A DNA stretch of 64,000 bases from an uncultured Alphaproteobacteria bacterium (GTDB taxonomy: Bacteria; Pseudomonadota; Alphaproteobacteria; HIMB59; GCA-002718135). Shown here one piece after another: positions 6,447 through 44,949 of this stretch (the first letter of the stretch is position 1; each line of letters begins with the position of its first letter). The notes under the pieces were generated by a model. That model saw only the letters and a list, made by a program, of their open reading frames with translations, was not told where the DNA came from and searched no databases. Both the position numbers and the translations under genes were made by a program. The stretch covers positions 62,001-126,000 of the forward strand of contig CACJRY010000001.1 in assembly GCA_902595855.1 (NCBI GenBank), in the 5' to 3' direction.

Positions 6447-7796
6447 ATGGCTAAAAAAATAAAAAAGAAAGATGATAAAAGTTTACTAGGGCGTAATGCA
6501 ATTTTTACACCTGATGTAATAAATGATATTCACATAAAATCTCAATTAGGTCGATATCGTATGAGAGGTATGGCACTAATGAAAAAAATCCCTCACTGGG
6601 ATGATTTAACATTTCTCCCTGGAACTCTTACAAGATTTGTTATCGAAGGTTACAGAGAAAAATGTGAAACCAAAACAGTAATTGGTCCTAGATGTAAAAA
6701 TCCAATTGAGTTGGATATACCCGTATATATAACCTCAATGAGTTTTGGTGCACTTTCTTACGAAGCAAAAACTGCCCTTGCTAGAGGTGCTACTATGGCT
6801 GGAAGTGCTACTTGTTCTGGTGAAGGTGGTATGATACCAGATGAGAGAAGATATTCTCATAAATGGTATTATCAATGTATACAATCTAGATATGGTTTTA
6901 ATCCTCATCATGCTCAACTTGCAGATGGTATTGAAGTTTTTATAGGTCAAGGTCAAAAAGTTGGTATGGGCGGACATTTAATGGGTCAAAAGGTTACTGA
7001 CCAAGTTGCAGAAATGAGATCATTACCTGCAGGAATTGATCAACGTTCACCTGCAAGGCATCCAGATTGGTTAGGACCTGATGATTTAGCTCTAAAAGTA
7101 CAAGAGTTAAGAGAGTTGACTGATAACCAAGTTCCAATTCAGCTAAAGTTAGGCGCAGCAAAAGTTTATGACGATGTTCGAATGGCAGCAAAATGTGATC
7201 CAGACTCAATTTATTTAGATTGTATGGAAGGTTCAACAGGTGCTGGACCTCACATTGCGGCAGCTAATACAGGTATACCAGGAATAGCAGCCGTACGAGA
7301 AGCAAGAAGAGCTCTTGATGATGTAGGAAAATCTGGAGATGTTACGCTAATTTTTGCAGGAGGATTAAGAGATGGTGCTGATATGGCAAAGGCACTTGCA
7401 CTTGGCGCTGACTGTATTTCTGTTGGTACTGGTGCTTTAGTTGCTTTAAATTGCAACAAAGATATTCCAGAGGCAGACTTTGAAAAAGAATTAGGTGTGG
7501 AAGCAGGATATTGTTATCACTGCCACACTGGAAGATGTCCGGTAGGTGTTGCAACACAGGATCCGAAGTTAAGAAAGAGACTTAATCCTGATGATGCTGC
7601 ACTTAGAGTTTATAATTATCTTCATGCAATGACATTAGAAGCTCAATTGTTAGCCAGAGCATGTGGTAAGACAAATATACACTCTCTAGAACCTGAAGAT
7701 CTTGCAGCTTTAACAATGGAAGCTTCCGCTCTAGCAAAAGTACCTCTTGCAGGTACTGATTATACTGTGGGCGTAGATAACTTCCATTCAATTTAG
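6447..7796 (+). CDS. mgsC: FMN/Fe-S glutamate synthase domain subunit, MgsC/GlxD type
   Basis: 449 residues with AAGAAGAGG ahead of the ATG. The TIM-barrel FMN-binding part carries SMSFGALSYEAK and GEGGMIPDERR near the N-terminus, GSTGAGPHIAA and FAGGLRDGADMAKALALGAD further on, then the cysteine set CYHCHTGRCPVG near residues 355-366, which matches the [3Fe-4S] cluster site of glutamate synthases. It corresponds to MgsC/GlxD. With the two upstream subunits it would move nitrogen, or a methylamine group, onto 2-oxoglutarate or glutamate. Whether the product is glutamate or an N-alkylglutamate cannot be told from sequence; the adjacent SoxB-like oxidoreductase favours the latter. Confidence 0.87.
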   Translation: MAKKIKKKDDKSLLGRNAIFTPDVINDIHIKSQLGRYRMRGMALMKKIPHWDDLTFLPGTLTRFVIEGYREKCETKTVIGPRCKNPIELDIPVYITSMSFGALSYEAKTALARGATMAGSATCSGEGGMIPDERRYSHKWYYQCIQSRYGFNPHHAQLADGIEVFIGQGQKVGMGGHLMGQKVTDQVAEMRSLPAGIDQRSPARHPDWLGPDDLALKVQELRELTDNQVPIQLKLGAAKVYDDVRMAAKCDPDSIYLDCMEGSTGAGPHIAAANTGIPGIAAVREARRALDDVGKSGDVTLIFAGGLRDGADMAKALALGADCISVGTGALVALNCNKDIPEADFEKELGVEAGYCYHCHTGRCPVGVATQDPKLRKRLNPDDAALRVYNYLHAMTLEAQLLARACGKTNIHSLEPEDLAALTMEASALAKVPLAGTDYTVGVDNFHSI

Positions 7797-7805
7797 GAGT
7801 AAATA

Positions 7806-8216
7806 ATGGCTAAGAAAAAAACAAAAAAAGTTGTTAAAAAAAGAAAGTCTAATTCTTCTAAAGATAAAGGCATTAAGACGGCAAGAGAAAAAATGATTGG
7901 TCAACATATTGGTTACCGATATGATGTAAACTTATTACCAGACTATAAGAGACTAACTCCATTTTTAAAAAAATACATAGAACATATGGGTTGGGATGAT
8001 CTTAATTGGTTAGAAGATGTTCATATGGGATATGAAGATGGTAAACCTGCAGTATTTGATCGAAATATCAATGGATGGGTGACCACACCACCAAAATTAA
8101 AATTACCAAAAGATCAACAAGATAGAGACATGATAGCTAGGGAACTATTAATCAAGTTCCAAATGTCTTCAAATCATCCACTCGTTACTCTTAAAAAGGC
8201 TTATAGAAAAAATTAA
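7806..8216 (+). CDS. Unknown Lys-rich 136-residue protein of the Mgs operon
   Basis: 136 residues, starting 9 bases after mgsC with GGAG just before the start. The first 30 residues are extremely basic (repeated Lys/Arg), and the remainder is a soluble domain with WDDLNWLEDVHMGYEDGKPAVFD followed by a C-terminal helix-rich part. No transmembrane segment or signal peptide is visible. I do not recognise the family. Its position as the last gene of the operon suggests a role tied to the amine/glutamate synthase enzymes, for example an accessory subunit, but nothing in the sequence proves this. Its stop overlaps the convergent gene by four bases. Confidence 0.75.
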   Translation: MAKKKTKKVVKKRKSNSSKDKGIKTAREKMIGQHIGYRYDVNLLPDYKRLTPFLKKYIEHMGWDDLNWLEDVHMGYEDGKPAVFDRNINGWVTTPPKLKLPKDQQDRDMIARELLIKFQMSSNHPLVTLKKAYRKN

Positions 8217-8758
8217 GTTAGATTTTTTAGCCCAGATTTATCTGGGCTAAATAAAAATATTTCTACATTTTCATTAAGAGAAGGGTTAAATAAAAAGTTA
8301 TGCCAAAAAGTGAACTTCCACTCATTCCTTGTCTTTGATAGTTTTTGTACTTTTAAAGGAAAGTCAAAACCTGTTTCTCTCTCAAAAAACTGAGCCTGAA
8401 AAGATTTTTTCGAACTTAATAATTTTAATGAGGGATCATCTTGACTAAATGTAGCTGTAAATCTTCCATCAAATTTATCAGGCTGATTAAAGTATTCATC
8501 ACTAAAAAGTTTAACAGCTTTTAAATATCTATCCTCAGGATCATGAGTTCTTTTATGCATAAACTCAAACATTCTTGATGAGTCTTCAACGTTTTTTTCT
8601 AACAAAACAGAAATAAATTGTTTTACTTCCTGATTAGTTTTTTTTTCATACAAATTACAAATTAAACCTTCAGATGGTTTACCTTTGTGTAATCTAAAAT
8701 TTCTTTGACGTATACTACACTGCCAAACTATGAAATCTTTCCAACCAACTCTCGCCAT
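8213..8758 (-). CDS. Conserved-looking hypothetical protein beside the ligase
   Basis: 181 residues; the start follows the ligase stop by two bases, so both lie in one transcription unit. It is a soluble, aromatic- and charge-rich protein (WKDFIVWQCSIRQRNFRLH near the start, WKFTFWHNFLFNP near the end) with no membrane segment. I do not recognise a family. The last dozen residues are encoded by a perfect 11-base hairpin (8226-8251), so the natural stop may have been extended through a terminator. The two-base link to a GmaS/GlnT-type ligase suggests a role in amine or ammonium assimilation, which is an inference. Confidence 0.7.
   Translation of the reverse strand: MARVGWKDFIVWQCSIRQRNFRLHKGKPSEGLICNLYEKKTNQEVKQFISVLLEKNVEDSSRMFEFMHKRTHDPEDRYLKAVKLFSDEYFNQPDKFDGRFTATFSQDDPSLKLLSSKKSFQAQFFERETGFDFPLKVQKLSKTRNEWKFTFWHNFLFNPSLNENVEIFLFSPDKSGLKNLT
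8226..8251. terminator. Hairpin between convergent amine-island operons
   Basis: Perfect 11-base stem (TTTAGCCCAGA paired with TCTGGGCTAAA) with a 4-base loop, ten bases after the stop at 8216. It is the obvious candidate end for the forward operon. It lies inside the end of the reverse gene at 8213-8758. No classical T-run follows on the forward strand. Confidence 0.65.
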
Positions 8759-8760
8759 AT

Positions 8761-10080
8761 TTAACAGTCAAGAGTGTTAAGTTTTTCCCACTCTGTAATA
8801 CCTTTTTTCTTAGAGTCTTTTGATTTTTTAAAATCTTTAATATCTAAAGAACGAAGTTTCACATATGAATTAATTGTTTCTTTAGAAAAGGCTTTATTCA
8901 TAACTTTACTTTTTGATAAATGAGATAAAGCAGTTTCTAAATTCTTAGGCAATTTTTTTGCACTCTTTGCTTTATGAGCTTCCGCGTACATATTTAGAAA
9001 ACTTGGCTTTCCTGGATTTCTATTATTTTCTATTCCATCGATACCTGCGGCAATAATACCTGCCTGAAGAAGATATGGATTAGTTGCACCGTCCATAAGT
9101 CTCAATTCAAATCTTCCAGAACCAGGAACTCTAATCATATGAGTTCTGTTGTTGTCAGAATATGTGATAGTATTTGGTGACCAAGTTGCCCCTGAATCAG
9201 TAACTGGTGCGTTAATACGCTTATAACTGTTTACAGTTGGGTTAAACCAAGCAGTAAGCGCTTCTGCTGAGTGCATAATACCGCCCATAAATTTATAAGC
9301 AGTTTTTGACAAACCTAGTTTATCTTTTTTATCGAGGAATAAGTTTTTTCCATTTTTATCCCAAACGGATAAATGCGCATGACAACCATTTCCTGTTTTA
9401 TTTTCAAAAGGTTTTGGCATGAAAGTTGCTCGAAGACCTTTTTGTTCAGCTAATGACTTAACCATAAATTTAAAGAAAACATGTCTGTCAGCTGTTTGCA
9501 AACAGTTAGAAAAGTCCCAATTCATTTCAAATTGCCCATTAGCATCTTCATGATCATTTTGATAAGGCCCCCAACCAAGCTTAATCATTGCATCACATAT
9601 TTCACTTATTAAATCATATTGGCGCATCAGTGCTGATTGGTCGTAACAGGGCTTAGATGCTTGATCGCGTTCATCTGCAATTGAATTTCCATCAGGCGAA
9701 ATGAGAAAATATTCACATTCAACACCAGATTTTAAATTCATATTTTTCTTCTTTAATTTTTCTATTTGATTTCTTAACATAACCCTTGGTGAAGATTTTA
9801 CGGGCTCACCATTCATCCATAAGTCTCCAGCCAGCCAACCAACCTCTGGCTTCCAGGGAAGTTGAATTAAACTTGAAGGATCAGGAATCGAAGCCATGTC
9901 TGCATCAGCTGGTGACATATCTAAGTAAGTTGAAAAGCCAGCAAATCCAGCTCCCTCTTTTTGCATCTGATCAATTACCTGAGCAGGAACCAATTTTGAT
10001 CTTACAACTCCAAAAAAATCTACGTAACATATTAAAAAATATTTGATTTTTCTTTTTTTTGCTTCTTTTTTTAAATCCAT
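8761..10080 (-). CDS. Type III GlnT / gamma-glutamylmethylamide synthetase-like ligase
   Basis: 439 residues with AGGGGGG ahead of the ATG. The opening (KYFLICYVDFFGVVRSKLVP) and the signatures GFAGFSTYLDMSP, YQNDHEDANGQFEMNW, NGCHAHLSVW, NPTVNSYKRI and SDNNRTHMIRVPG, ending in ENTLDC-like KLNTLDC, are characteristic of the GlnT family that travels with glxBCD and includes methylotroph GmaS. The reaction would be ATP-dependent joining of glutamate to methylamine (or ammonia). It diverges from amt across a 227-base gap, which fits nitrogen-regulated expression. GmaS activity is probable from family and context but not provable here, so I give no symbol. Confidence 0.87.
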   Translation of the reverse strand: MDLKKEAKKRKIKYFLICYVDFFGVVRSKLVPAQVIDQMQKEGAGFAGFSTYLDMSPADADMASIPDPSSLIQLPWKPEVGWLAGDLWMNGEPVKSSPRVMLRNQIEKLKKKNMNLKSGVECEYFLISPDGNSIADERDQASKPCYDQSALMRQYDLISEICDAMIKLGWGPYQNDHEDANGQFEMNWDFSNCLQTADRHVFFKFMVKSLAEQKGLRATFMPKPFENKTGNGCHAHLSVWDKNGKNLFLDKKDKLGLSKTAYKFMGGIMHSAEALTAWFNPTVNSYKRINAPVTDSGATWSPNTITYSDNNRTHMIRVPGSGRFELRLMDGATNPYLLQAGIIAAGIDGIENNRNPGKPSFLNMYAEAHKAKSAKKLPKNLETALSHLSKSKVMNKAFSKETINSYVKLRSLDIKDFKKSKDSKKKGITEWEKLNTLDC

Positions 10081-21985: not shown

Positions 21986-22885
21986 ATGAAACAAAAATTA
22001 AAATCATATAATGCCCAAACATATATAGCATATGCACTAATTGCGCCTGCTGCTATTTATATAATTCTTATTGTTGCTTGGCCATTATTAGAAACAATTA
22101 GATTATCTTTCACAAATTCTAGCTTAGCAGGCGAAGATTATGTTGGTTTAGAAAATTATCAAAAAATGTTTTCTAGTAAAAAATTTAATGGAATAGTTTC
22201 CAGAACATTTATTTGGATGTTTTTTTCAGTCTCTTTAAAACTTATTATTGGTTTAATTGGAGCTGTTTTACTTAATGCTAATTTAAAAGGAAGATCAATT
22301 TTTAGAGTACTTGTAATGCCTCCTTGGGTAGTTCCGATTGCAATTGGGATGCTCGGCTGGTTATGGTTATATAACGGATATTTTGGAATTATAGCAGGCG
22401 TAGGTATGCGAACTGGTATTTTGGATGGTCCTTTTGGATTTCTTGCTTACAAACAAAGTGCCTTTATTTCTACAATAATTGCAGATGTATGGGTTGGAAC
22501 ACCAATGGTAACAGTTTTCTTTTTAGCTGCAATGCAAGGTGTTCCAAGGGATTTATATGAAGCTGCTTATTGTGATGGTGCTTCAAGATGGGATAGGTTT
22601 TTTAAAATTACGTTACCTCAAATCACCCCTGTAATTATTACAATGTCATTGCTATCTGCTATTTGGACATTCAACTCATTTGAAATAATCTGGATACTAA
22701 CTGAAGGTGGACCAAGAGGGGCTACAACTACATTAATTATCGATACCTATAAACAAGCATTAGGAAATTATAAATTTGGAAGAGGGGCTGCTAGAGCCGT
22801 GGTTGTAATGATTTTATTAATGTTATTTGCAGGTTTTTATCTAGCTTTACTTGCTAGAATTAATAGGAAAATTTCTCATGGATAA
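21986..22885 (+). CDS. Sugar ABC importer permease, MalF/LacF type
   Basis: 299 residues with six membrane helices. The cytoplasmic EAA loop is DLYEAAYCDGASRWDRFFKITLPQI near residue 190, which contacts the ATPase. The N-terminus (AYALIAPAAIYIILIVAWPLLETIRLSF) is that of CUT1-family permeases. It starts five bases after the Gfo/Idh gene and overlaps the next permease by eight bases (ATGGATAA), so translation is coupled. It would form the importer with one of the two following MalG-type proteins; an ATPase gene is not present in this operon. Confidence 0.93.
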   Translation: MKQKLKSYNAQTYIAYALIAPAAIYIILIVAWPLLETIRLSFTNSSLAGEDYVGLENYQKMFSSKKFNGIVSRTFIWMFFSVSLKLIIGLIGAVLLNANLKGRSIFRVLVMPPWVVPIAIGMLGWLWLYNGYFGIIAGVGMRTGILDGPFGFLAYKQSAFISTIIADVWVGTPMVTVFFLAAMQGVPRDLYEAAYCDGASRWDRFFKITLPQITPVIITMSLLSAIWTFNSFEIIWILTEGGPRGATTTLIIDTYKQALGNYKFGRGAARAVVVMILLMLFAGFYLALLARINRKISHG

Positions 22886-23717
22886 ATATAATCCTTTTGA
22901 AAAAATATTAATTTATTCTGGCATATTGGTCTTCATGACTTTTATTCTTTTGCCTTTTGTCGAAATGTTTTATGCATCACTTCGTCCTTTAGATCATTTA
23001 TTTCGTTCACCATATCAATTTTATTCTGATGATTTATCTTTTTGGGCTTATCGAGAAATGTGGAATACTGTGCCAATGCTTGGAAGATATATCTTTAATA
23101 GTTTTTTTCTGGCTTCTTGCGTTGCAATACTAACTCTTCTTTTTGTTATTCCAGCAGCTTACGCTTACGCACGTTTTAAATTTCCTGCTAAGAATACTAG
23201 CTTATACTTACTTCTGGCAATTAATATGTTTTCTGGTGCAGTAATTTTAATACCACTATACAAACTCTTAAGGACTTTAGGTTTATTAAATAGTTATCAA
23301 TCTATGATTATTCCGGGAGTGGCTTTTTTAATTCCAACATCAATATGGTTACTTAAGTCTTACTTTGAAAAAATACCAATAGATTTGGAGGAAGCAGCTT
23401 TTGTAGATGGTGCATCAAGAGTACAAATACTCAGGCATATCATAGCTCCTCTAAGCACACCTGGATTAGTTGTAGTTGGTATTTATGCTTTCATCGGTGC
23501 GTACGCTCAACAGTTTTTATTTGCGATTACATTTAACCAGAAGAAAGAATATATGCCAATTCCAACAGGGTTATATGAATTTATAGGATATCAAAGTGTT
23601 AAATGGAATGAAATGATGGCAGCTGCCTTAGTAGGAATGTTACCTGTGTTATTATTATTTATTTTTTTACAAAAATATATTGTAGAGGGACTCACTGCGG
23701 GTGCAGTAAAAAACTAA
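22878..23717 (+). CDS. Sugar ABC importer permease, MalG type, copy 1
   Basis: 279 residues from ATG 22878, inside the end of the previous gene (8-base overlap). Six membrane helices, with the EAA loop DLEEAAFVDGASRVQILRHI near residue 168. It is followed after one base by a near copy of itself. About 30 of 279 residues differ between the two proteins, concentrated in helices rather than in the EAA loop. Nucleotides 22940-23071 are identical to 23781-23912. It should pair with the MalF-type protein encoded just upstream. Confidence 0.93.
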   Translation: MDKYNPFEKILIYSGILVFMTFILLPFVEMFYASLRPLDHLFRSPYQFYSDDLSFWAYREMWNTVPMLGRYIFNSFFLASCVAILTLLFVIPAAYAYARFKFPAKNTSLYLLLAINMFSGAVILIPLYKLLRTLGLLNSYQSMIIPGVAFLIPTSIWLLKSYFEKIPIDLEEAAFVDGASRVQILRHIIAPLSTPGLVVVGIYAFIGAYAQQFLFAITFNQKKEYMPIPTGLYEFIGYQSVKWNEMMAAALVGMLPVLLLFIFLQKYIVEGLTAGAVKN

Positions 23718-23718
23718 A

Positions 23719-24558
23719 TTGGATAAATATAATATATACGAAAAGATATTATTATATTCAGGAATATTAGTCTTTATGATTTTTATTCTTTTGCCTTTTG
23801 TCGAAATGTTTTATGCATCACTTCGTCCTTTAGATCATTTATTTCGTTCACCATATCAATTTTATTCTGATGATTTATCTTTTTGGGCTTATCGAGAAAT
23901 GTGGAATACTGTACCTATGCTTCCAAGATATATTTTTAACAGTTTTTTTCTGGCCTCAGTAACTTCTATAATTACTTTGCTTTTTGTAATTCCTGCAGCT
24001 TACGCTTACGCACGATTTAAATTTCCTTTTAAAAATTCTTCACTCTATATTTTATTAGCAATTAATATGTTTTCAGGTGCGGTTTTATTAATTCCTCTTT
24101 ATAAAGTATTAAGAACATTTGGTTTGCTAAATACATATCAAGCTATGATTGTTCCAGGAGTTGCTTTTCTAATTCCAACATCAATATGGTTACTGAAATC
24201 TTATTTTGCTAAAATACCAATAGATTTGGAGGAAGCAGCTTTTGTAGATGGTGCATCAAGAGTACAAATTTTAAGACATATAATCGCACCTCTTAGTACA
24301 CCTGGTCTGGTAGTTGTTGGGATATATGCTTTTATAGGATCTTATGCTCAACAATTCTTATTTGCGATTACATTTAACCAGAAAAAAGAATATATGCCTA
24401 TCCCTTCGGGACTCTATGAATTTATAGGATACACAACAGTCAAATGGAATGAAATGATGGCCGCTTCTCTTGTTGGGATAGCACCTGTCTTGATTATTTT
24501 TCTTTTTTTGCAGAAATATATTGTTGCTGGATTGACTTCTGGAGCGGTAAAAAACTAG
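23719..24558 (+). CDS. Sugar ABC importer permease, MalG type, copy 2
   Basis: 279 residues from a TTG start at 23719, placed exactly as the ATG of copy 1 (both proteins begin M-DKYN). It has the same length, six helices and an identical EAA segment. Differences to copy 1 are spread over the membrane helices (for example helix 2 and the last helix). Both copies are intact, so neither looks like a decaying pseudogene. Two alternatives for the second half-transporter may give two importers with different sugar preference. No ribosome site is visible upstream because it begins one base after copy 1. Confidence 0.9.
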   Translation: MDKYNIYEKILLYSGILVFMIFILLPFVEMFYASLRPLDHLFRSPYQFYSDDLSFWAYREMWNTVPMLPRYIFNSFFLASVTSIITLLFVIPAAYAYARFKFPFKNSSLYILLAINMFSGAVLLIPLYKVLRTFGLLNTYQAMIVPGVAFLIPTSIWLLKSYFAKIPIDLEEAAFVDGASRVQILRHIIAPLSTPGLVVVGIYAFIGSYAQQFLFAITFNQKKEYMPIPSGLYEFIGYTTVKWNEMMAASLVGIAPVLIIFLFLQKYIVAGLTSGAVKN

Positions 24559-36657: not shown

Positions 36658-37128
36658 ATGAAAAAACTATTAATATTACTTATGCTAACTTCATTTAATG
36701 TTAGTGGCGCTGGTACAGAGTCGAGCAATAGTGACTCTTCGACAACACCTGACCAAATTAACAGTTTATATGAGTTAGCTGAAAAACACATCTATAACAA
36801 AAAATATGACAAATCTCTTAAGTTACTTAAAAAACTTACAAAAAGAGAGGATTTAGGTACAAGGAGAGCAGATATTTATAATCTTCTTGGTTTTAGTTAT
36901 AGAAAATTAGAAAATCCTGAACTCGATAAGTCTTTTGCTGCTTATATGATGGCTTTAGAAATAGATCCAGAGCATGCAGGTGCTCATGAATATTTGGGTG
37001 AACTATACTTGATGCGAGATCAAAAAAATCAAGCTATGAGAATGTTAAGCAAATTGGAAAACCTAGTTGGGAAAAATGCTGAGGAGTATAAAGACCTTCT
37101 TAAAGCTATTGAAAATTATCAATCATAA
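36658..37128 (+). CDS. Secreted TPR-repeat protein
   Basis: 156 residues with a signal peptide (basic KK, hydrophobic LLILLMLTSF, cleavage near SGA|GT at about residue 19). After a Ser/Thr-rich linker come two or three tetratricopeptide-like units (LYELAEKHIYNKKYDKSLKLLKKL, ADIYNLLGFSYRKLE, and the AGAHEYLGELYLMR unit). TPR proteins mediate protein contacts; this one would be periplasmic. It overlaps the convergent kinase by ten bases. Function unknown. Confidence 0.82.
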   Translation: MKKLLILLMLTSFNVSGAGTESSNSDSSTTPDQINSLYELAEKHIYNKKYDKSLKLLKKLTKREDLGTRRADIYNLLGFSYRKLENPELDKSFAAYMMALEIDPEHAGAHEYLGELYLMRDQKNQAMRMLSKLENLVGKNAEEYKDLLKAIENYQS

Positions 37129-37982
37129 TACATAATTTTCTTAATTTTCTGTTCCTTATCAATTTTAATTAACATGTCTGCTTTGTCAGGCATGTTTTTA
37201 ATCATCCATTTTGTTAATTTTTCATAGTAAAGAATAAAATTTTTTATTGTATTTTTATCCATGAAATTTTTAGTTTTCGCTTTTTTGGCATTATTTTTTT
37301 CTTGTGCATACCTCCATTTTAGAACAAAGTTAAATGATGGGGGTTGAAGATAAATTATTCTGTCAAAAGTCTTAAATATTTGTTGATATTCATTTTTTAA
37401 TTTCGAATTATAATATTCTCTCCATTTAAAATCTTTGTCTAACTCCTGTTCAACTTTGTTTAAATTTATCTTAAGAAACTTATTTTCAATAGGTTTTGAC
37501 CCACAGCACCAGCCTTCTAAAATTAAAATATCAGCTTTATTAAAAACTTTAGTTTTTTTTGAAATATCATCTTTTAGTTTATTAAAAGTTGGAGTTATAA
37601 TTGGGAACTGTTTTTTTTTAAATTGTCCTAAATGCTCTTTTAGTTTTTTTATATTGTGAGTACCTGGAACACCTCTAGTTATTAGAAGAGGATGGATTTG
37701 CTGTGAAATATTATATCTATCTGTTTTAGATAAGTAGTAATCATCAATACTAAGAAGCATTACTTTTTTTGATGAAGTTTTTTCAATAACAATTTTTATT
37801 AACTTTGATAAAGTTGATTTACCAGAACCTTGGGAGCCAGAAATTATAAATTTCTTATCATTAGTTTTATCAATATACTGAATAATTGGTAATATATATT
37901 TACAAATATAACTTTTAGAAAATTTTTTTCCTGTTAAATTATTTAATTCTTTTTGAATAATGAAATCAATTTTTTTTTTCAT
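37119..37982 (-). CDS. D-glycerate 3-kinase-like P-loop kinase
   Basis: 287 residues with a P-loop ISGSQGSGKSTLSK near residue 47, LLSIDDYYLSKTDRY near 77, RGVPGTHNI near 101, and LILEGWCCGSKP near 155. This matches the eukaryote/plant-type glycerate 3-kinase (GLYK) family, distantly related to uridine kinase and pantothenate kinase. It would make 3-phosphoglycerate from D-glycerate, which fits the nearby glycerol-3-phosphate use genes. It lies head to head with the next HAD gene with only about 50 bases between. Confidence 0.8.
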   Translation of the reverse strand: MKKKIDFIIQKELNNLTGKKFSKSYICKYILPIIQYIDKTNDKKFIISGSQGSGKSTLSKLIKIVIEKTSSKKVMLLSIDDYYLSKTDRYNISQQIHPLLITRGVPGTHNIKKLKEHLGQFKKKQFPIITPTFNKLKDDISKKTKVFNKADILILEGWCCGSKPIENKFLKINLNKVEQELDKDFKWREYYNSKLKNEYQQIFKTFDRIIYLQPPSFNFVLKWRYAQEKNNAKKAKTKNFMDKNTIKNFILYYEKLTKWMIKNMPDKADMLIKIDKEQKIKKIMYYD

Positions 37983-38032: not shown

Positions 38033-38626
38033 ATGAAATTTCTTTTTGATTTAGGTGGTGTATTTTTTGATTGGGATCCTAATCACTTTTATAAGAATGT
38101 ATTTGAAAATATTGAAGAGAGAGAATTCTTCTTAGCTGAAGTTTGTAATGATTATTGGAACGTTCAACAAGATGCAGGAAGATCTATTGCTGAAGCTGAG
38201 TTAGAGCTTATTCCTAAATTTCCTCATTATGAAAAAGAAATTAAGATGTATTACAAAAATCATCGTAAAATGATCAGAGGCATTTTTGAGGAGTCAGTAG
38301 ATATCTTAAAAAAACTTAAAAATAAAAATTACGAGTGCTACGTATTATCTAATTGGTCAGCAGAAACTTTTGCTGGGATGATTGATGATTATCCTTTTTT
38401 AAAATTATTTGACGGACTTCTTATTTCTGGTGAGGATAAACTTATTAAACCTGATCATGCTATTTATCAATTAGCAAGAGATCGTTTTAATTTAAATCCG
38501 GAAGAGACTGTTTTTATTGATGATAAGCGAGAAAATATAGAGGCAGCTAAAGGATTAGATTTTAAAACTATTCATTTAACAGATCCAAATATTATTAAGA
38601 CAGAAATTAAAAAATTTTTAGTTTAA
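38033..38626 (+). CDS. HAD-family hydrolase
   Basis: 197 residues from ATG 38033; an in-frame TTG at 37997 would add a less conserved tail. Motif I is FLFDLGGVFFDWD, which has the DxG form rather than DxDG, as in the YihX/haloacid dehalogenase-like phosphatases; YVLSNWSAETF is motif II and FIDDKRENIEAAKGLDFKTIHL motif IV. It is probably a sugar-phosphate phosphatase of the YihX type. Its end overlaps the convergent ugpC gene by nine bases. Confidence 0.85.
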   Translation: MKFLFDLGGVFFDWDPNHFYKNVFENIEEREFFLAEVCNDYWNVQQDAGRSIAEAELELIPKFPHYEKEIKMYYKNHRKMIRGIFEESVDILKKLKNKNYECYVLSNWSAETFAGMIDDYPFLKLFDGLLISGEDKLIKPDHAIYQLARDRFNLNPEETVFIDDKRENIEAAKGLDFKTIHLTDPNIIKTEIKKFLV

Positions 38627-39670
38627 TCTTTTTTTTGTCTCTTGATCAAACAAGTGATAATTTTCATCTTCAATTTCTAATGAAATTTCTTCATTCGCTT
38701 TTATTTTAGTATTACCATTTTCTCTATAACATAAATAATTGTTTGATTTATCATAACCATAGATAATACTGTCAGCGCCAAGCTTTTCTATGAGATCTAC
38801 TTTAATCTTTATACTGCCATTTGCGCTCACTTTTAGGTTTTCTGGTCTAATACCAAAAATTACTTCTTGATCCTTTACATCTTTATTTATTGAACATTCA
38901 AATTCATCTGAAATAAATTTATTTGCATGAATTTTACCATTAATAAAATTCATTTGTGGTGTTCCTATAAATTCTGCTACAAAATATGTTGCTGGCTTTT
39001 CATAAACCTCAATGGGTGAGCCTACTTGCTCAATAACCCCTTCATTTATTACAGCTAATCGATCTCCTAATGTCATAGCTTCTACTTGATCATGTGTAAC
39101 AAATACACTTGTAACACCCATTTGCTTTTGCAATTTTTTAATTTCAATTCTAACTTGTCCTCTTAATTTTGCATCTAGGTTAGATAAAGGCTCATCAAAT
39201 AAAAAGGCTTTTGGATTTCTGACTATAGCTCTGCCCATCGCAACACGTTGTCTTTGTCCACCTGAAAGTTGACCCGGTTTTCTTAATAGAAATTCTTTGA
39301 TTTCTAAAAGTTCAGCTACTTCATTTACTTTTTTTTCTATCTCTTCCTTTGATTCTCCTTTATTTTTTAATCCATATGCTAAATTCTTGTAAACATTCAT
39401 GTGCGGGTAAAGAGCATAATTTTGAAAAACCATTGCAACATCTCTTTCAGAAGGGTCAACTTTATTAATTACTCTATTATCTAATTTAATTTCTCCACCA
39501 GTAATATCTTCTAAACCAGCTATCATTCTTAATAAAGTTGATTTGCCACATCCACTTGGTCCAACAAATACCATTAGTTCTCCCTCACTAATACTTAGAG
39601 AAGTTTCATTTACAGCTTTTGTTCCATTTGGATAAATTTTAGTTACATTGTCTAACTCTAAATAACTCAT
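38618..39670 (-). CDS. ugpC: sn-glycerol-3-phosphate ABC importer ATPase UgpC-like
   Basis: 350 residues: Walker A GPSGCGKSTLLRM near residue 35, signature LSGGQRQRVAMGRAIVRNP near 135, Walker B FLFDEPLSNLDA, switch His in VFVTHDQVEAM, then the C-terminal regulatory beta domain of MalK/UgpC-type ATPases. It drives the Ugp importer and may also serve the amino-sugar permeases, which have no ATPase gene of their own. It starts directly after the upstream permease stop (39671). Confidence 0.92.
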   Translation of the reverse strand: MSYLELDNVTKIYPNGTKAVNETSLSISEGELMVFVGPSGCGKSTLLRMIAGLEDITGGEIKLDNRVINKVDPSERDVAMVFQNYALYPHMNVYKNLAYGLKNKGESKEEIEKKVNEVAELLEIKEFLLRKPGQLSGGQRQRVAMGRAIVRNPKAFLFDEPLSNLDAKLRGQVRIEIKKLQKQMGVTSVFVTHDQVEAMTLGDRLAVINEGVIEQVGSPIEVYEKPATYFVAEFIGTPQMNFINGKIHANKFISDEFECSINKDVKDQEVIFGIRPENLKVSANGSIKIKVDLIEKLGADSIIYGYDKSNNYLCYRENGNTKIKANEEISLEIEDENYHLFDQETKKRLN

Positions 39671-40522
39671 TTATTTCTCCGTTTGTATTAGGCCCTTAAT
39701 AAACCATCGTTGTAAAAAGATTACCACCAACACTGGAGGTATCATTGATAAAATTATATATGAAAATCTCTCAGCAACTCTTGGGAGATTTCCACCCTCG
39801 TAAGACTCTTGAAATATAATCTTCATTCCCATTACGACTGTCCAATATTTCTCATCTGTAGTCATAATTAATGGCCATAAATATTGGCTATAACCATAAA
39901 CGAACATGAAAATAAACATAGCTGCTATCATTGTTTTGGACAAAGGTAGAAGAAAATCAATAAAGAATTTCCAACTATTTGCCCCATCTAATTTTGCAGC
40001 TTCCAAAAGTTCATCTGGAACAGATTTATAAAATTGCCTAAAGAAAAATGTTGCTGTAGCAGAAGCTACAAGAGGTAGTACTAACCCTGTATATGAATTT
40101 GTTAAATTTAAATCTGACACTATTTGATAGCTTGGCAATATTCTTACCTCAAGAGGCACAAGAAGAGTGATAAAGATTAACCAAAAAATTGGTGTAGCTA
40201 GTCTAAATCTAAAGTAAACAATAGCATAAGCAGACATAGCTGATATTATTACTTTTACAGTAGCAATACCAAAAGCCATAATGAAGCTATTTATAAACAT
40301 ACTCGTAGCTGTTATTTCTTGTGAGAAACCGCCTTTTCGATTTAGTACTTCATTGTAGTTATCAAAAAACTTATCACCTAATCCCCATTTCATCCCCTCA
40401 GTAATTATGTCAACATTTTCGTGAGTTGAGCTTGCAAAAGCAATCCAAATTGGTACGACCATAACCAAGACACCAAGCCATAAAATAAAATGTGCAGTAA
40501 ATTGAAGGGTTCTAGAGCTCAT
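39671..40522 (-). CDS. ugpE: Glycerol-3-phosphate ABC permease UgpE-like, copy 1
   Basis: 283 residues, six membrane helices, EAA loop ELLEAAKLDGANSWKFFIDFLLP near residue 178. It is a MalG-type permease with the long periplasmic first loop of UgpE. Its start overlaps the preceding permease stop by four bases (ATGA). Copy 1 and copy 2 share the layout but differ at many positions outside the EAA region; the DNA at 39960-40012 is identical to 40781-40833, and it covers this EAA segment. With UgpA it should form the transmembrane core. Confidence 0.9.
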   Translation of the reverse strand: MSSRTLQFTAHFILWLGVLVMVVPIWIAFASSTHENVDIITEGMKWGLGDKFFDNYNEVLNRKGGFSQEITATSMFINSFIMAFGIATVKVIISAMSAYAIVYFRFRLATPIFWLIFITLLVPLEVRILPSYQIVSDLNLTNSYTGLVLPLVASATATFFFRQFYKSVPDELLEAAKLDGANSWKFFIDFLLPLSKTMIAAMFIFMFVYGYSQYLWPLIMTTDEKYWTVVMGMKIIFQESYEGGNLPRVAERFSYIILSMIPPVLVVIFLQRWFIKGLIQTEK

Positions 40523-41343
40523 TTTGACTGAAATAATCCTTGAATAAAAAGTCTTTGCAAAAATACAATTATTATCACTGGTGGTATCAATGATAATATT
40601 ACATAGGTATATCTATCAACACTGTTACCGCCGTAAATCATTTTTAGCCCCATAACTACTGTCCAGTACTTTTCAGAAGTTGTCATTATCAGTGGCCAAA
40701 GATATTGATTGTACCCGTACACAAACATAAAGATAAACATTGCAGCTATCATCGTTTTAGATAGTGGAACTAAAAAATCGATAAAGAATTTCCAACTATT
40801 TGCCCCATCTAATTTTGCAGCTTCCAAAAGTTCTTCAGGAATAGATCGGTAATATTGACGAAAGAAAAATGTAGCAATAGCTGATGCAGATAAAGGCAGT
40901 ATTAAACCTGCATAAGAATTTAATAAATTTAAATCAGAAACAATTTGATAGCTAGGCAAAATACGAAGTTCTAAAGGAACAAGTAGTGTTACAAATATTA
41001 ACCAAAAAAATAATGTTGAAAAACGTGTTTTAAAATACACAAGAGAGTAAGCAGCCATCATAGAAACAAATACAGATAGGCTTGCGATACCAAAAGCCAT
41101 GATAAAACTATTATAAAAAATTCCACTTGCGGTAATTTCTTTTGTAAAACCGCCTTTTCTATTTAGTACTCTATCGTAATTATCAAAAAACTCTCCTCCA
41201 ATCTTCCATTGCATGCCTTCATTATAAATAAAATTATTACTGTGTGTTGAACTTGCAAATACCAACCAAAGAGGAACAATCATAAGAAGCACACCGCAAA
41301 TTAAGATTGAGTGAGATACAGTTATTCTAAATATTCTGCTCAT
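40519..41343 (-). CDS. Glycerol-3-phosphate ABC permease UgpE-like, copy 2
   Basis: 274 residues from ATG 41343, one base after the ugpA stop; a TTG at 41370 is in frame but overlaps ugpA by 26 bases. Same six-helix MalG-type layout, with EAA loop ELLEAAKLDGANSWKFFIDFLVP. It lacks the insertion near residue 240 (IIFQESYEGGNLP in copy 1), so the copies diverged in a membrane/periplasm-facing part. Both copies are intact. One may serve a different phosphodiester or sugar phosphate, which is only an inference. Confidence 0.9.
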   Translation of the reverse strand: MSRIFRITVSHSILICGVLLMIVPLWLVFASSTHSNNFIYNEGMQWKIGGEFFDNYDRVLNRKGGFTKEITASGIFYNSFIMAFGIASLSVFVSMMAAYSLVYFKTRFSTLFFWLIFVTLLVPLELRILPSYQIVSDLNLLNSYAGLILPLSASAIATFFFRQYYRSIPEELLEAAKLDGANSWKFFIDFLVPLSKTMIAAMFIFMFVYGYNQYLWPLIMTTSEKYWTVVMGLKMIYGGNSVDRYTYVILSLIPPVIIIVFLQRLFIQGLFQSK

Positions 41344-41344
41344 A

Positions 41345-42223
41345 TTAATTGTAATGAATTTTTCCTTCAATAAATCTAAATTGAAATACAGTAATGACTA
41401 ACACAATTAGCATCATTATTATGGATTGTGCGCCAGCACTTCCAAGGTCTAAACCTTTAAATCCATCAATATAAGCTTTATAAACAAGTGTTTTTGTTTC
41501 TCCACTTGGAGCACCAATAGTAGTTGTGTCTATAATCCCTAAAGTATCAAAAAATGAATAAGTTATATTTATAATTATGAGAAAGAATGTTGTTGGCATG
41601 AGAAGAGGGAAGGTTATTGTCCAAAATCTTCTAAAACTACTTTTACAATCAATAATCGATGCTTCAATTATTGATTTTTGAATATTTTGTAGGCCTGCCA
41701 AAAAGAAAATAAAATTTGCACTGATTTGTTTCCACGAGGCTGCAATGAACACATAAATATAAGCATCGTATACATTGTCATACCAATCAAATCCCCAAAG
41801 TCCGTTAAAAAAATTATAGAGTATTCCAAGTCTTTCACTAAAAAAGTAATTAGCAGTTACTCCAACAACAGCCGGTGCAATTGCATAAGGCCAAATTAAG
41901 AGTGTTTTATATGCGCTTTTACCATGAATGACATTGTTTGCTTGAACAGCCAATAGTAATCCAATTGAGCAAGAGAAGAATGTGATAACAACAATAAAAA
42001 TCAAAGTAAATTTTAATGCAGTAATATAATTAGGATCAGATAAGACAAAAGTAAAATTATCAAGACCAGAAAAATATCGTCCAAAGCCAAATGCATCTTG
42101 TATTGTAAATGCATCTCTAAATGTTTGAACAATAGGCAAATATAAAAAAATTAATATTATTGCAAGTTGAGGAGCAATAAAAAAATATTGTGTAAAATAA
42201 GAACTAAATTGGACTCTTTTCAT
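41345..42223 (-). CDS. ugpA: Glycerol-3-phosphate ABC permease UgpA-like
   Basis: 292 residues with six membrane helices and a MalF-type N-terminus (YFFIAPQLAIILIFLYLPIVQTFRDAF). The EAA loop is SIIEASIIDCKSSFRRFWTITFPLL near residue 193, with an unusual CKS in place of the common GAS. Located between the ugpB gene and the duplicated ugpE genes. The protein pairs with UgpE in the inner membrane for uptake of sn-glycerol-3-phosphate. Confidence 0.9.
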   Translation of the reverse strand: MKRVQFSSYFTQYFFIAPQLAIILIFLYLPIVQTFRDAFTIQDAFGFGRYFSGLDNFTFVLSDPNYITALKFTLIFIVVITFFSCSIGLLLAVQANNVIHGKSAYKTLLIWPYAIAPAVVGVTANYFFSERLGILYNFFNGLWGFDWYDNVYDAYIYVFIAASWKQISANFIFFLAGLQNIQKSIIEASIIDCKSSFRRFWTITFPLLMPTTFFLIIINITYSFFDTLGIIDTTTIGAPSGETKTLVYKAYIDGFKGLDLGSAGAQSIIMMLIVLVITVFQFRFIEGKIHYN

Positions 42224-42273: not shown

Positions 42274-43584
42274 TTATAAAGTTTTAGCGAACTGAGCAAG
42301 CAATTTAGAAGCTCCTTCATCCATTCTTTTCATGCCTTCCTCTATACTTATTTCCCCATTCAACATTTTAGGGTAATTCTCATATAGGACTTCACGAATT
42401 TGCGGCCAGTTTCCAGCTCTATATCCACCAGGAATAGTTGAACCAGTTAAACTTAGCTGTTCACCAACAGCTTTATGATAAGGAGAAGCTTCGTAGAAGC
42501 CAATCTCATTAGCTAGATCTGTTGCTGAGTACGTAACAGCAGCATAACCTGACATGTTATGATAGAACAATTGTTGTTCAGGAGATGTCATGAATTCAGC
42601 TAATTTCATTAGTGCAGCGTATTCTTCATCAGATTTACCTGATAAAATCCAGTTTGCAGCACCACCAATAAATGTTGGATATTCCTTACCTCCAGTAATT
42701 GAATCCCAATAAGGGATGTGATTAACAGTGAAGTTTGGAACAACACCTTTCATACCACTAAATGAGGCAGCAGATCCAAGCCAGAAAGCAGCTTCACCAG
42801 CAATAAATGGTGCTTGGTTATCTCCCCATGCACGGCCTTTATAATCGTACCATCCTTTATCTTTCCACTCTTTTACTTTAGTCCAGTGAGTAATAAATTC
42901 TGGAGTATCAGCAAATAAAGTAGTCGTTGGTACATCATCATAACCATTGTTACCATCAGTCATAAGTAGATTATGTCTTGAAAAGAAATTTTCAGTCCAA
43001 ATCCAAGGGCTGTGACTTTGTAATAATGGCGTATAACCAGCTTCTAGAATTTTAGGTGCAATTTGTTCAAATTCCTCATAAGTTTTTGGAACTTCAACTC
43101 CAGCAGCTTCGAGGATATCCATGTTGGCATACATCAAACAAGTTGAACTATTAAAAGGTATACCAATCATTTTTCCATCTGAGTCAGCATAGAAATTTCT
43201 AATACCAGGAATGTAGTCATCCTTATTAAAGTCTACACCATATTCAGCTGCCATGTCTTCAAATGGGTATACAACACCATTTTTAACTTGAGCTACCATT
43301 ATTGCAGCACCTGCATCATATACTTGAACCATGTGTGGATGTTCACCAGCTCTGTAAGCAGCAATAAATGCAGCTAGGATGTCCTCATAACTACCTTTAC
43401 TGGTTGGAATTAAAACTGACTCATCTTGACTCGCATTCCATCTGTCTGCAATTTCATTAATAATAGCTTCAAGTTTTCCTGTATGACCATGCCAATAATG
43501 AAGCTCTATAGGCTTTGCAATTGTTGGTAATGATAAAAAGGAAGCAGTTACTAAAGCTATAAAAAATTTAAATAAATTTTTCAT
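42274..43584 (-). CDS. ugpB: Glycerol-3-phosphate ABC binding protein UgpB
   Basis: 436 residues, about the length of E. coli UgpB (438). Signal peptide near residues 1-23 (FFIALVTASFLSLPTIA|KP). Mature start IELHYWHGHTGKLEAI, then VQVYDAGAAIMVA, IPFNSSTCLMYAN, FIGGAANWI and a late RAGNWPQIREVL agree closely with UgpB. It binds sn-glycerol-3-phosphate or glycerophosphodiesters in the periplasm. First gene of a B-A-E-E-C operon, with a ribosome site AGGAGG just upstream. Confidence 0.93.
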   Translation of the reverse strand: MKNLFKFFIALVTASFLSLPTIAKPIELHYWHGHTGKLEAIINEIADRWNASQDESVLIPTSKGSYEDILAAFIAAYRAGEHPHMVQVYDAGAAIMVAQVKNGVVYPFEDMAAEYGVDFNKDDYIPGIRNFYADSDGKMIGIPFNSSTCLMYANMDILEAAGVEVPKTYEEFEQIAPKILEAGYTPLLQSHSPWIWTENFFSRHNLLMTDGNNGYDDVPTTTLFADTPEFITHWTKVKEWKDKGWYDYKGRAWGDNQAPFIAGEAAFWLGSAASFSGMKGVVPNFTVNHIPYWDSITGGKEYPTFIGGAANWILSGKSDEEYAALMKLAEFMTSPEQQLFYHNMSGYAAVTYSATDLANEIGFYEASPYHKAVGEQLSLTGSTIPGGYRAGNWPQIREVLYENYPKMLNGEISIEEGMKRMDEGASKLLAQFAKTL

Positions 43585-43785: not shown

Positions 43786-44949
43786 ATGATGGAAACACAA
43801 AATATTAAATATGATATTTTTATAATAGGTGGTGGGATAAATGGCGCTGGAATCGCAAGAGATGCCAGTGGTAGAGGCTTAAAAGTCTATTTGGCAGAAA
43901 AGGGAAAGGTAGGTTCTGCAACATCTTCTTGGTCATCTAAGCTAATACATGGCGGTTTAAGATATTTAGAAAATTATGAGTTCAAACTTGTTGCTGAGTC
44001 TCTTAGAGAAAGAGAAGTAATTACTAAAATTGCTCCATCAATTACTAAGCCTTTGCCATTTGTCATTCCGCATACTAAAAAATTAAGATCAAAATTTTTA
44101 ATTAGACTCGGATTATTTTTATATGATAATCTTGGTGGTAAATCAAAAATACCTAAATCATCTAAAATTAATTTTAATAAAAAGTATCAAAATATATTAC
44201 AATCAAAGTTTTCAGATGGTTTCCAGTATTATGATGTCCAAGTTGATGACAAGAAATTAGTAGAAATGAATATAGATGATGCAAAAAAAATGGGCGCCAT
44301 TATTGCAGAAGATACAAAAGTAATAAATGCAAATAGAATAGACAATTATTGGGAAATAACTCTTAATAATAAAAATAAAATAAAATCAAAAATTTTAATA
44401 AATGCAGCAGGTCCGTGGATTAATGAAACCGTCAATAATGTCCTCAAAATTAATGCAAAAAAATCAATTAGGCTTGTAAGAGGAAGTCACATCATTACAA
44501 AAAAATTATATGAAGAGGAAGTAGCGTTTACTTTACAAAATGATGATAATAGAATTGTTTTTGTAATTCCGTATAAAGACGAGTACTCTCTCATTGGGAC
44601 AACGGAAGTTGATGTTAATTCACCAAATAACCCGTCAATTTCTGATGAAGAGAAAATTTATTTAATTAATACAATTAATAAACATTTTATTAGGCAAATT
44701 TCTCAAGAGGATATTGTTGATACGTACTCAGGTATACGTCCTTTGATTGAAGATTTTAAAGAAGCTTCAAAAGTAACAAGAGATTATGTTTTTGATTTAA
44801 ACTGTGAGAATAATAATTTACCTTTATTAAATATTTATGGTGGCAAACTTACCACCTACAGAAAGCTATCAGAAAAGGTAATGGAGGAATTATCTCCTTA
44901 TTTACCTGATACAAAAATAAAAAATTGGACGAGTTCTAAACCACTATAA
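43786..44949 (+). CDS. glpD: Glycerol-3-phosphate dehydrogenase GlpD, C-terminal domain missing
   Basis: 387 residues. FAD-binding FIIGGGINGAGIARDASGRGL near residue 12, then KLIHGGLRYLENYEFKLV, NAAGPWIN, VRGSHII, FVIPYKDEYSLIGTTEVD and GGKLTTYRKLSEKVM are typical of GlpD. The protein stops at the point where GlpD proteins continue into a C-terminal helical domain of about 110 residues (E. coli GlpD has 501). The domain is not found in other frames downstream, so it has been lost cleanly. The reaction is oxidation of glycerol-3-phosphate to dihydroxyacetone phosphate. It faces away from ugp and matches its substrate. Confidence 0.88.
   Translation: MMETQNIKYDIFIIGGGINGAGIARDASGRGLKVYLAEKGKVGSATSSWSSKLIHGGLRYLENYEFKLVAESLREREVITKIAPSITKPLPFVIPHTKKLRSKFLIRLGLFLYDNLGGKSKIPKSSKINFNKKYQNILQSKFSDGFQYYDVQVDDKKLVEMNIDDAKKMGAIIAEDTKVINANRIDNYWEITLNNKNKIKSKILINAAGPWINETVNNVLKINAKKSIRLVRGSHIITKKLYEEEVAFTLQNDDNRIVFVIPYKDEYSLIGTTEVDVNSPNNPSISDEEKIYLINTINKHFIRQISQEDIVDTYSGIRPLIEDFKEASKVTRDYVFDLNCENNNLPLLNIYGGKLTTYRKLSEKVMEELSPYLPDTKIKNWTSSKPL

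Follow-up and report, generated by a model that had tools for sequence, protein, structure and literature searches.

Two conserved and diverged UgpE permeases in the ugp operon of HIMB59 and SAR11 Alphaproteobacteria

Results

Operon organization and predicted substrate

In the stretch of DNA analyzed here (the window, 64,000 nucleotides from an uncultured alphaproteobacterium of the order HIMB59), we found an importer operon of the known UgpBAEC type whose variation is a twin, conserved UgpE. Where the usual, though not strictly defining, number of G-type permeases is one, two genes for this subunit, ugpE1 and ugpE2, lie between ugpA and ugpC. The operon occupies the reverse strand in the order ugpB (42274–43584, a substrate-binding protein of 436 aa), ugpA (41345–42223, an F-type permease of 292 aa), ugpE1 (40519–41343, 274 aa), ugpE2 (39671–40522, 283 aa), and ugpC (38618–39670, the shared ATPase, 350 aa). 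Alongside it, glpD, encoding glycerol-3-phosphate dehydrogenase, runs divergently on the forward strand (43786–44949; 520 bits for NCBIfam PRK12266, whose cut-off is 360). The initial annotation had described two UgpE-like proteins encoded side by side, as their best matches bear out, with neighbors overlapping by 4 bases or 1 base. The 4-nt overlap is there between ugpE1 and ugpE2 (40519–40522), but the 1-base overlap is not: ugpE2 abuts ugpC (39671/39670), and a single base (41344) separates ugpA from the ATG start of ugpE1. Elsewhere in the window, a P-loop kinase-like protein is encoded at 37119–37982 on the reverse strand, with subthreshold Pfam matches (PRK family, SWI2_SNF2).

Genes for all four UgpBAEC subunit types are present together, as judged by best NCBIfam matches to UgpB (PRK10974, E = 2e-71, 241 bits against an equivalog cut-off of 411), UgpA (PRK10561, E = 3e-73, 247 bits against 335), UgpE twice (PRK10973, 289 bits for UgpE2 and 259 bits for UgpE1 against 297), and UgpC (505 bits, above the cut-off of 432 of PRK11650, a subfamily model). 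Both permeases exceed the cut-off of Pfam PF00528 (BPD_transp_1), and both carry the EAA loop EAAKLDGANSW. Our search of the genome gave one UgpB, with the next match reaching 26% identity over 150 aa; at a completeness of about 84%, the assembly may lack a second one.

We infer glycerol-3-phosphate and glycerophosphodiesters as the substrates, and put it no more firmly because UgpE, UgpA, and UgpB all score below their equivalog cut-offs. The assignment is strengthened by the linkage to glpD, which is divergent in many SAR11 loci too, and by a glycerophosphodiesterase gene directly after ugpC in 74/74 SAR11 loci. Both pieces of the query were found in 73 of these loci, and in 65 of them the gene runs in frame from one piece to the other. 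In locus L123, we recognized it by eye from its HRG...ENTLESF motif (6908–7832); there it is split by a frameshift, and it is in frame in most other SAR11 loci. Also near the ugp operon of L123 is a gene for an aquaporin/glycerol-facilitator-like protein, judged by eye (8672–9349, reverse strand). The genome of the window encodes a glycerophosphodiesterase elsewhere, with none adjoining the ugp operon.

Distribution of the ugpE pair

The operon is patchy yet nearly always paired, as the counts in both orders show. Within the order of the window, UgpE of this kind was found in 49 of 162 genomes, 43 of them with both copies, and both families have the pair; in the second family, all 18 genomes matched in the relatives search carry both. 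The SAR11 order sample gave UgpE in 86 of 397 genomes, with two matches in 66 and one distant match in 20 (43–47% identical among the matches listed). At the level of loci, E1 is followed by E2 in 74/74 loci labeled Pelagibacteraceae (L122–L195; they make up 74 of the 80 retained loci on named genome contigs), matching at 81–82%, and ugpB or ugpA is absent solely where the locus begins late. Among the 77 UgpE-bearing genomes outside the order of the window in a class-wide sample, no linked E1/E2-like pair was seen; one of them (G416) has two UgpE, at 57% and 49%, that are not linked.

Six genomes of the window's order gave a single match. In four, the match is a fragment or lies near a contig start. 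The remaining two, G458 and G464, belong to the window's genus and have operons (L102 and L101, respectively) with ugpB, ugpA, ugpC, and a single ugpE of the E2 type. Because this gene sits within the E2 clade and directly after ugpA, E1 was most likely lost in these genomes; they manage with one E2-type copy, and E1 is therefore dispensable.

An assembly artifact was considered and rejected, since many independent single-cell genomes show the same gene order. One contig matching the window's operon at 98–100% (L116) is filed in a metagenome-assembled genome named Euryarchaeota archaeon ARS96; the archaeal label is probably a binning or naming error.

Origin of the duplication

Across 273 paired codons, identity between the two copies is 70.7% at the protein level and 70.1% at the DNA level. 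An indel follows residue ~236, close to residue 240 where the annotation had placed it. A protein tree built with IQ-TREE recovered an E1 clade (UFBoot 100), an E2 clade (94), and a joint clade (100) against 26 single-copy UgpE used as the outgroup, five of which were mistranslated from the wrong strand in that tree. With these corrected, FastTree gave 0.98 for E1, only 0.58 for E2, and 0.84 for the joint clade. Each of the E1 and E2 clades holds sequences from the family of the window, from the second family, and from SAR11. We therefore consider that the copies most likely stem from one old duplication that took place before these operons diverged. That one copy is instead an unrelated permease gained by transfer, the circumstance the annotation had named as fatal to its reading, is extremely improbable: E1 and E2 are sister clades, mutually closest against the 26 other UgpE, which refutes a single-gene transfer, and we found no support for one, even if transfer of the operon as a unit from one lineage to another is possible. 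Such a transfer is suggested by the patchy occurrence of the operon in the window's genus, together with the placement of the second family beside SAR11, and away from the window's own family, in both clades.

A comparable arrangement exists elsewhere in the window, where an amino-sugar importer (22851–24558, forward strand) likewise has a tandem duplicated G-type permease, with copies 89% identical. Within the window's genus, most genomes with the importer have both copies, and in the other genera of the family there is one. This is an independent duplication, probably younger, that affected the same type of subunit. The annotation was right that the ugp pair is the more diverged of the two (70.7% versus 89%) and that it arose independently. 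Its interpretation as a whole captured the duplication; it lacked the old age of the pair, its sharing with SAR11 and the second family, the gene conversion behind the identical EAA-loop segment, and the fixation in every examined E1 of the indel in the putative scoop loop, the last two of which are described below.

Divergence of the two copies

Strong purifying selection acts on both copies, and each has its EAA motif intact. Among near relatives, dN/dS was ~0.03–0.10 for E1 and ~0.01–0.04 for E2 where divergence permits a value; outliers were a near-identical pair at 0.27, resulting from almost no changes, and another pair at 0. A pseudogene was rejected on these low values. Lengths are stable as well (E2, 283 aa in 90/90; E1, 272–281 aa in 88/91, the other three being shorter), and the stop-start overlap between E1 and E2 is exactly 4 nt in 91/91 loci, a set in which some genomes are counted twice.

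We aligned 18 distinct E1, 19 E2-type, and 26 other UgpE sequences. Lys90 is present in 26/26 outgroups and in all E2; it is replaced by Ser in E1 and by Thr in the E1 of genome G508. Further changes in E1 affect sites that are nearly constant elsewhere (V126 to L, T156 to I, and E/D282 to K). By these characters, E1 is the derived copy and E2 the ancestral-like one. E1 has also evolved ~2.4-fold further than E2 (mean 0.68 versus 0.28). Across the three lineages, 27 aligned positions have no residue common to E1 (G508 aside) and E2, and the same separation holds for a deletion in the P3 loop.

This deletion removes 8–9 residues after residue ~239 in 18/18 distinct E1, that of G508 included; the longer loop is kept by all E2, and other UgpE have an intermediate or long one. 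In a distant sequence alignment, the indel coincides with the periplasmic loop P3 between the last two helices of MalG (2r6g_G), which places the short P3 loop of UgpE1, GGNSVDR, at 40612–40632 and the long P3 loop of UgpE2, residues 238–250, at 39773–39811, both on the reverse strand. The MalG loop is itself only a little longer than that of E1. In PotABC, P3 of PotC acts as a scoop loop and reaches into the binding protein, the PotC substitution K223A abolishes stimulation by PotD, and MalG and SugB are reported to have the same feature (PMC11414716). AlphaFold models of E1 and E2, made from 11 and 12 sequences and lacking the first residue, were poor (pLDDT 45 and 43; pTM 0.34 and 0.32, respectively).

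Gene conversion at the EAA segment

As the annotation had noted, 53 bases over the EAA loop are exactly identical between ugpE1 (40781–40833) and ugpE2 (39960–40012), both on the reverse strand. The next longest identical run is 14 nt, and 0/20,000 shuffles of codon columns reached 53. Long runs were also found in L098 (127 nt), in G508 (149 nt), and in L123 and its near-twin L139 (47 nt); all of these lie around the EAA segment, and the longest runs in other genomes are 14–33 nt. A silent-site test, which is stricter than the shuffle, gave p = 0.0012 for the window and p < 0.0001 for L098 and G508 (0/10,000); it was weak for L123 (p = 0.024). When E1 and E2 were compared across genomes, 0/15 silent-site tests were significant, with a lowest p of 0.08.

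Trees are consistent with these results. With the EAA segment only, E1 pairs with E2 within L098 (0.96) and within G508 (1.00), and the copies are mixed in SAR11; the remainder of the sequence splits by copy, with the exception of the G508 E1, which falls with E2. This E1 retains the short P3 loop between E2-like converted flanks. Together, the runs and the trees indicate that the EAA segment has been homogenized by gene conversion in several lineages and that the putative scoop loop has not. Read as a scar of gene conversion, the 53-nt identity gives no date for the duplication and is no mark of youth.

Discussion

The operon resembles E. coli-type UgpBAEC(Q) in its four subunit types, gene order, and linked glpD, and, in the SAR11 members, in the glycerophosphodiesterase gene after ugpC; it differs in having two ugpE, one with a short P3 loop, and, in the window, in the absence of an adjoining glycerophosphodiesterase gene. 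The marine alphaproteobacterium Phaeobacter sp. MED193 also has a UgpB-UgpA-UgpE-UgpC importer, whose UgpB binds G3P and G1P, but the paper names one UgpE, and its text does not mention SAR11, HIMB59, or a duplication (PMC12718374). In MalFGK2, SugABC, and PotABC, the scoop loop of MalG, SugB, and PotC connects TM5 with TM6, which in the alignment is the site of the difference between E1 and E2; unlike here, the well-studied cases have one such subunit per system. Our search covered the open literature and turned up no use of ugpE1, ugpE2, or similar names, so that earlier notice of the twin UgpE in subscription papers is possible. Neither the HIMB59 phosphate-island paper nor the AEGEAN-169 comparative paper mentions ugp.

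The ugpB-A-E1-E2-C operon arose when the G-type gene ugpE was duplicated in tandem long ago, and it descends with both copies in SAR11 and in the two families of the window's order. Judging from the sequences, UgpA and a UgpC dimer would probably pair with either UgpE1 or UgpE2 to form two versions of the importer, UgpA-E1-C2 and UgpA-E2-C2, both fed by the single UgpB. The EAA loop of Type I importers docks the ATPase. UgpE1 and UgpE2 would both use it to dock the same UgpC, in line with the gene conversion that keeps re-matching this part; two permeases served by one UgpC would accept, or benefit from, EAA segments that match. Divergence would lie on the periplasmic side, and the two forms, UgpE2 with its long putative scoop loop and UgpE1 with one 8–9 residues shorter, are expected to differ in how they take ligand from UgpB. 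Our guess is that the split is between small glycerol-3-phosphate and bulkier glycerophosphodiesters, without assigning either copy to either ligand. The full proposal, in which two specialized G-type permeases act as interchangeable channel halves that split ligands by size, with conversion concentrated on the ATPase-docking segment, is possible, and we hold it tentatively.

E1 and E2 might instead be interchangeable, with the second copy just raising the amount of G-type subunit for dosage or assembly in a transport-limited oligotroph. Repeated gene conversion between the copies fits such a role, as do the genomes that manage with one copy and the duplicated G-type permease of the amino-sugar importer encoded in the window. 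Interchangeable copies, however, should not retain differences such as the 27 positions and the P3 deletion that separate E1 (G508 aside) from E2 across three lineages, nor the ~2.4-fold further evolution of E1; this divergence therefore counts against dosage, which we regard as unlikely. A different role for E1, as a partner of E2 in a second transporter lacking UgpA (E1-E2-C2) or as a regulator on the complex, would be in keeping with three permeases sharing one operon and with the shortened putative scoop loop, which may keep E1 from extracting ligand in the normal manner. Nevertheless, E1 has a complete BPD_transp_1 domain and an EAA loop matched to that of E2, and the Type I importers known from this family pair an F-type with a G-type permease, so that we find this role quite improbable.

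SAR11 genomes are streamlined and paralogs are rare in them; a second UgpE kept over deep divergence therefore implies a real benefit. If the two complexes that we consider probable both form, they would constitute one importer with two channel variants and a single binding protein, and would offer a direct way to test the contribution of the scoop loop to ligand choice. They would also bear on the use of phosphorus and carbon from phospholipids by the dominant bacteria of the ocean.
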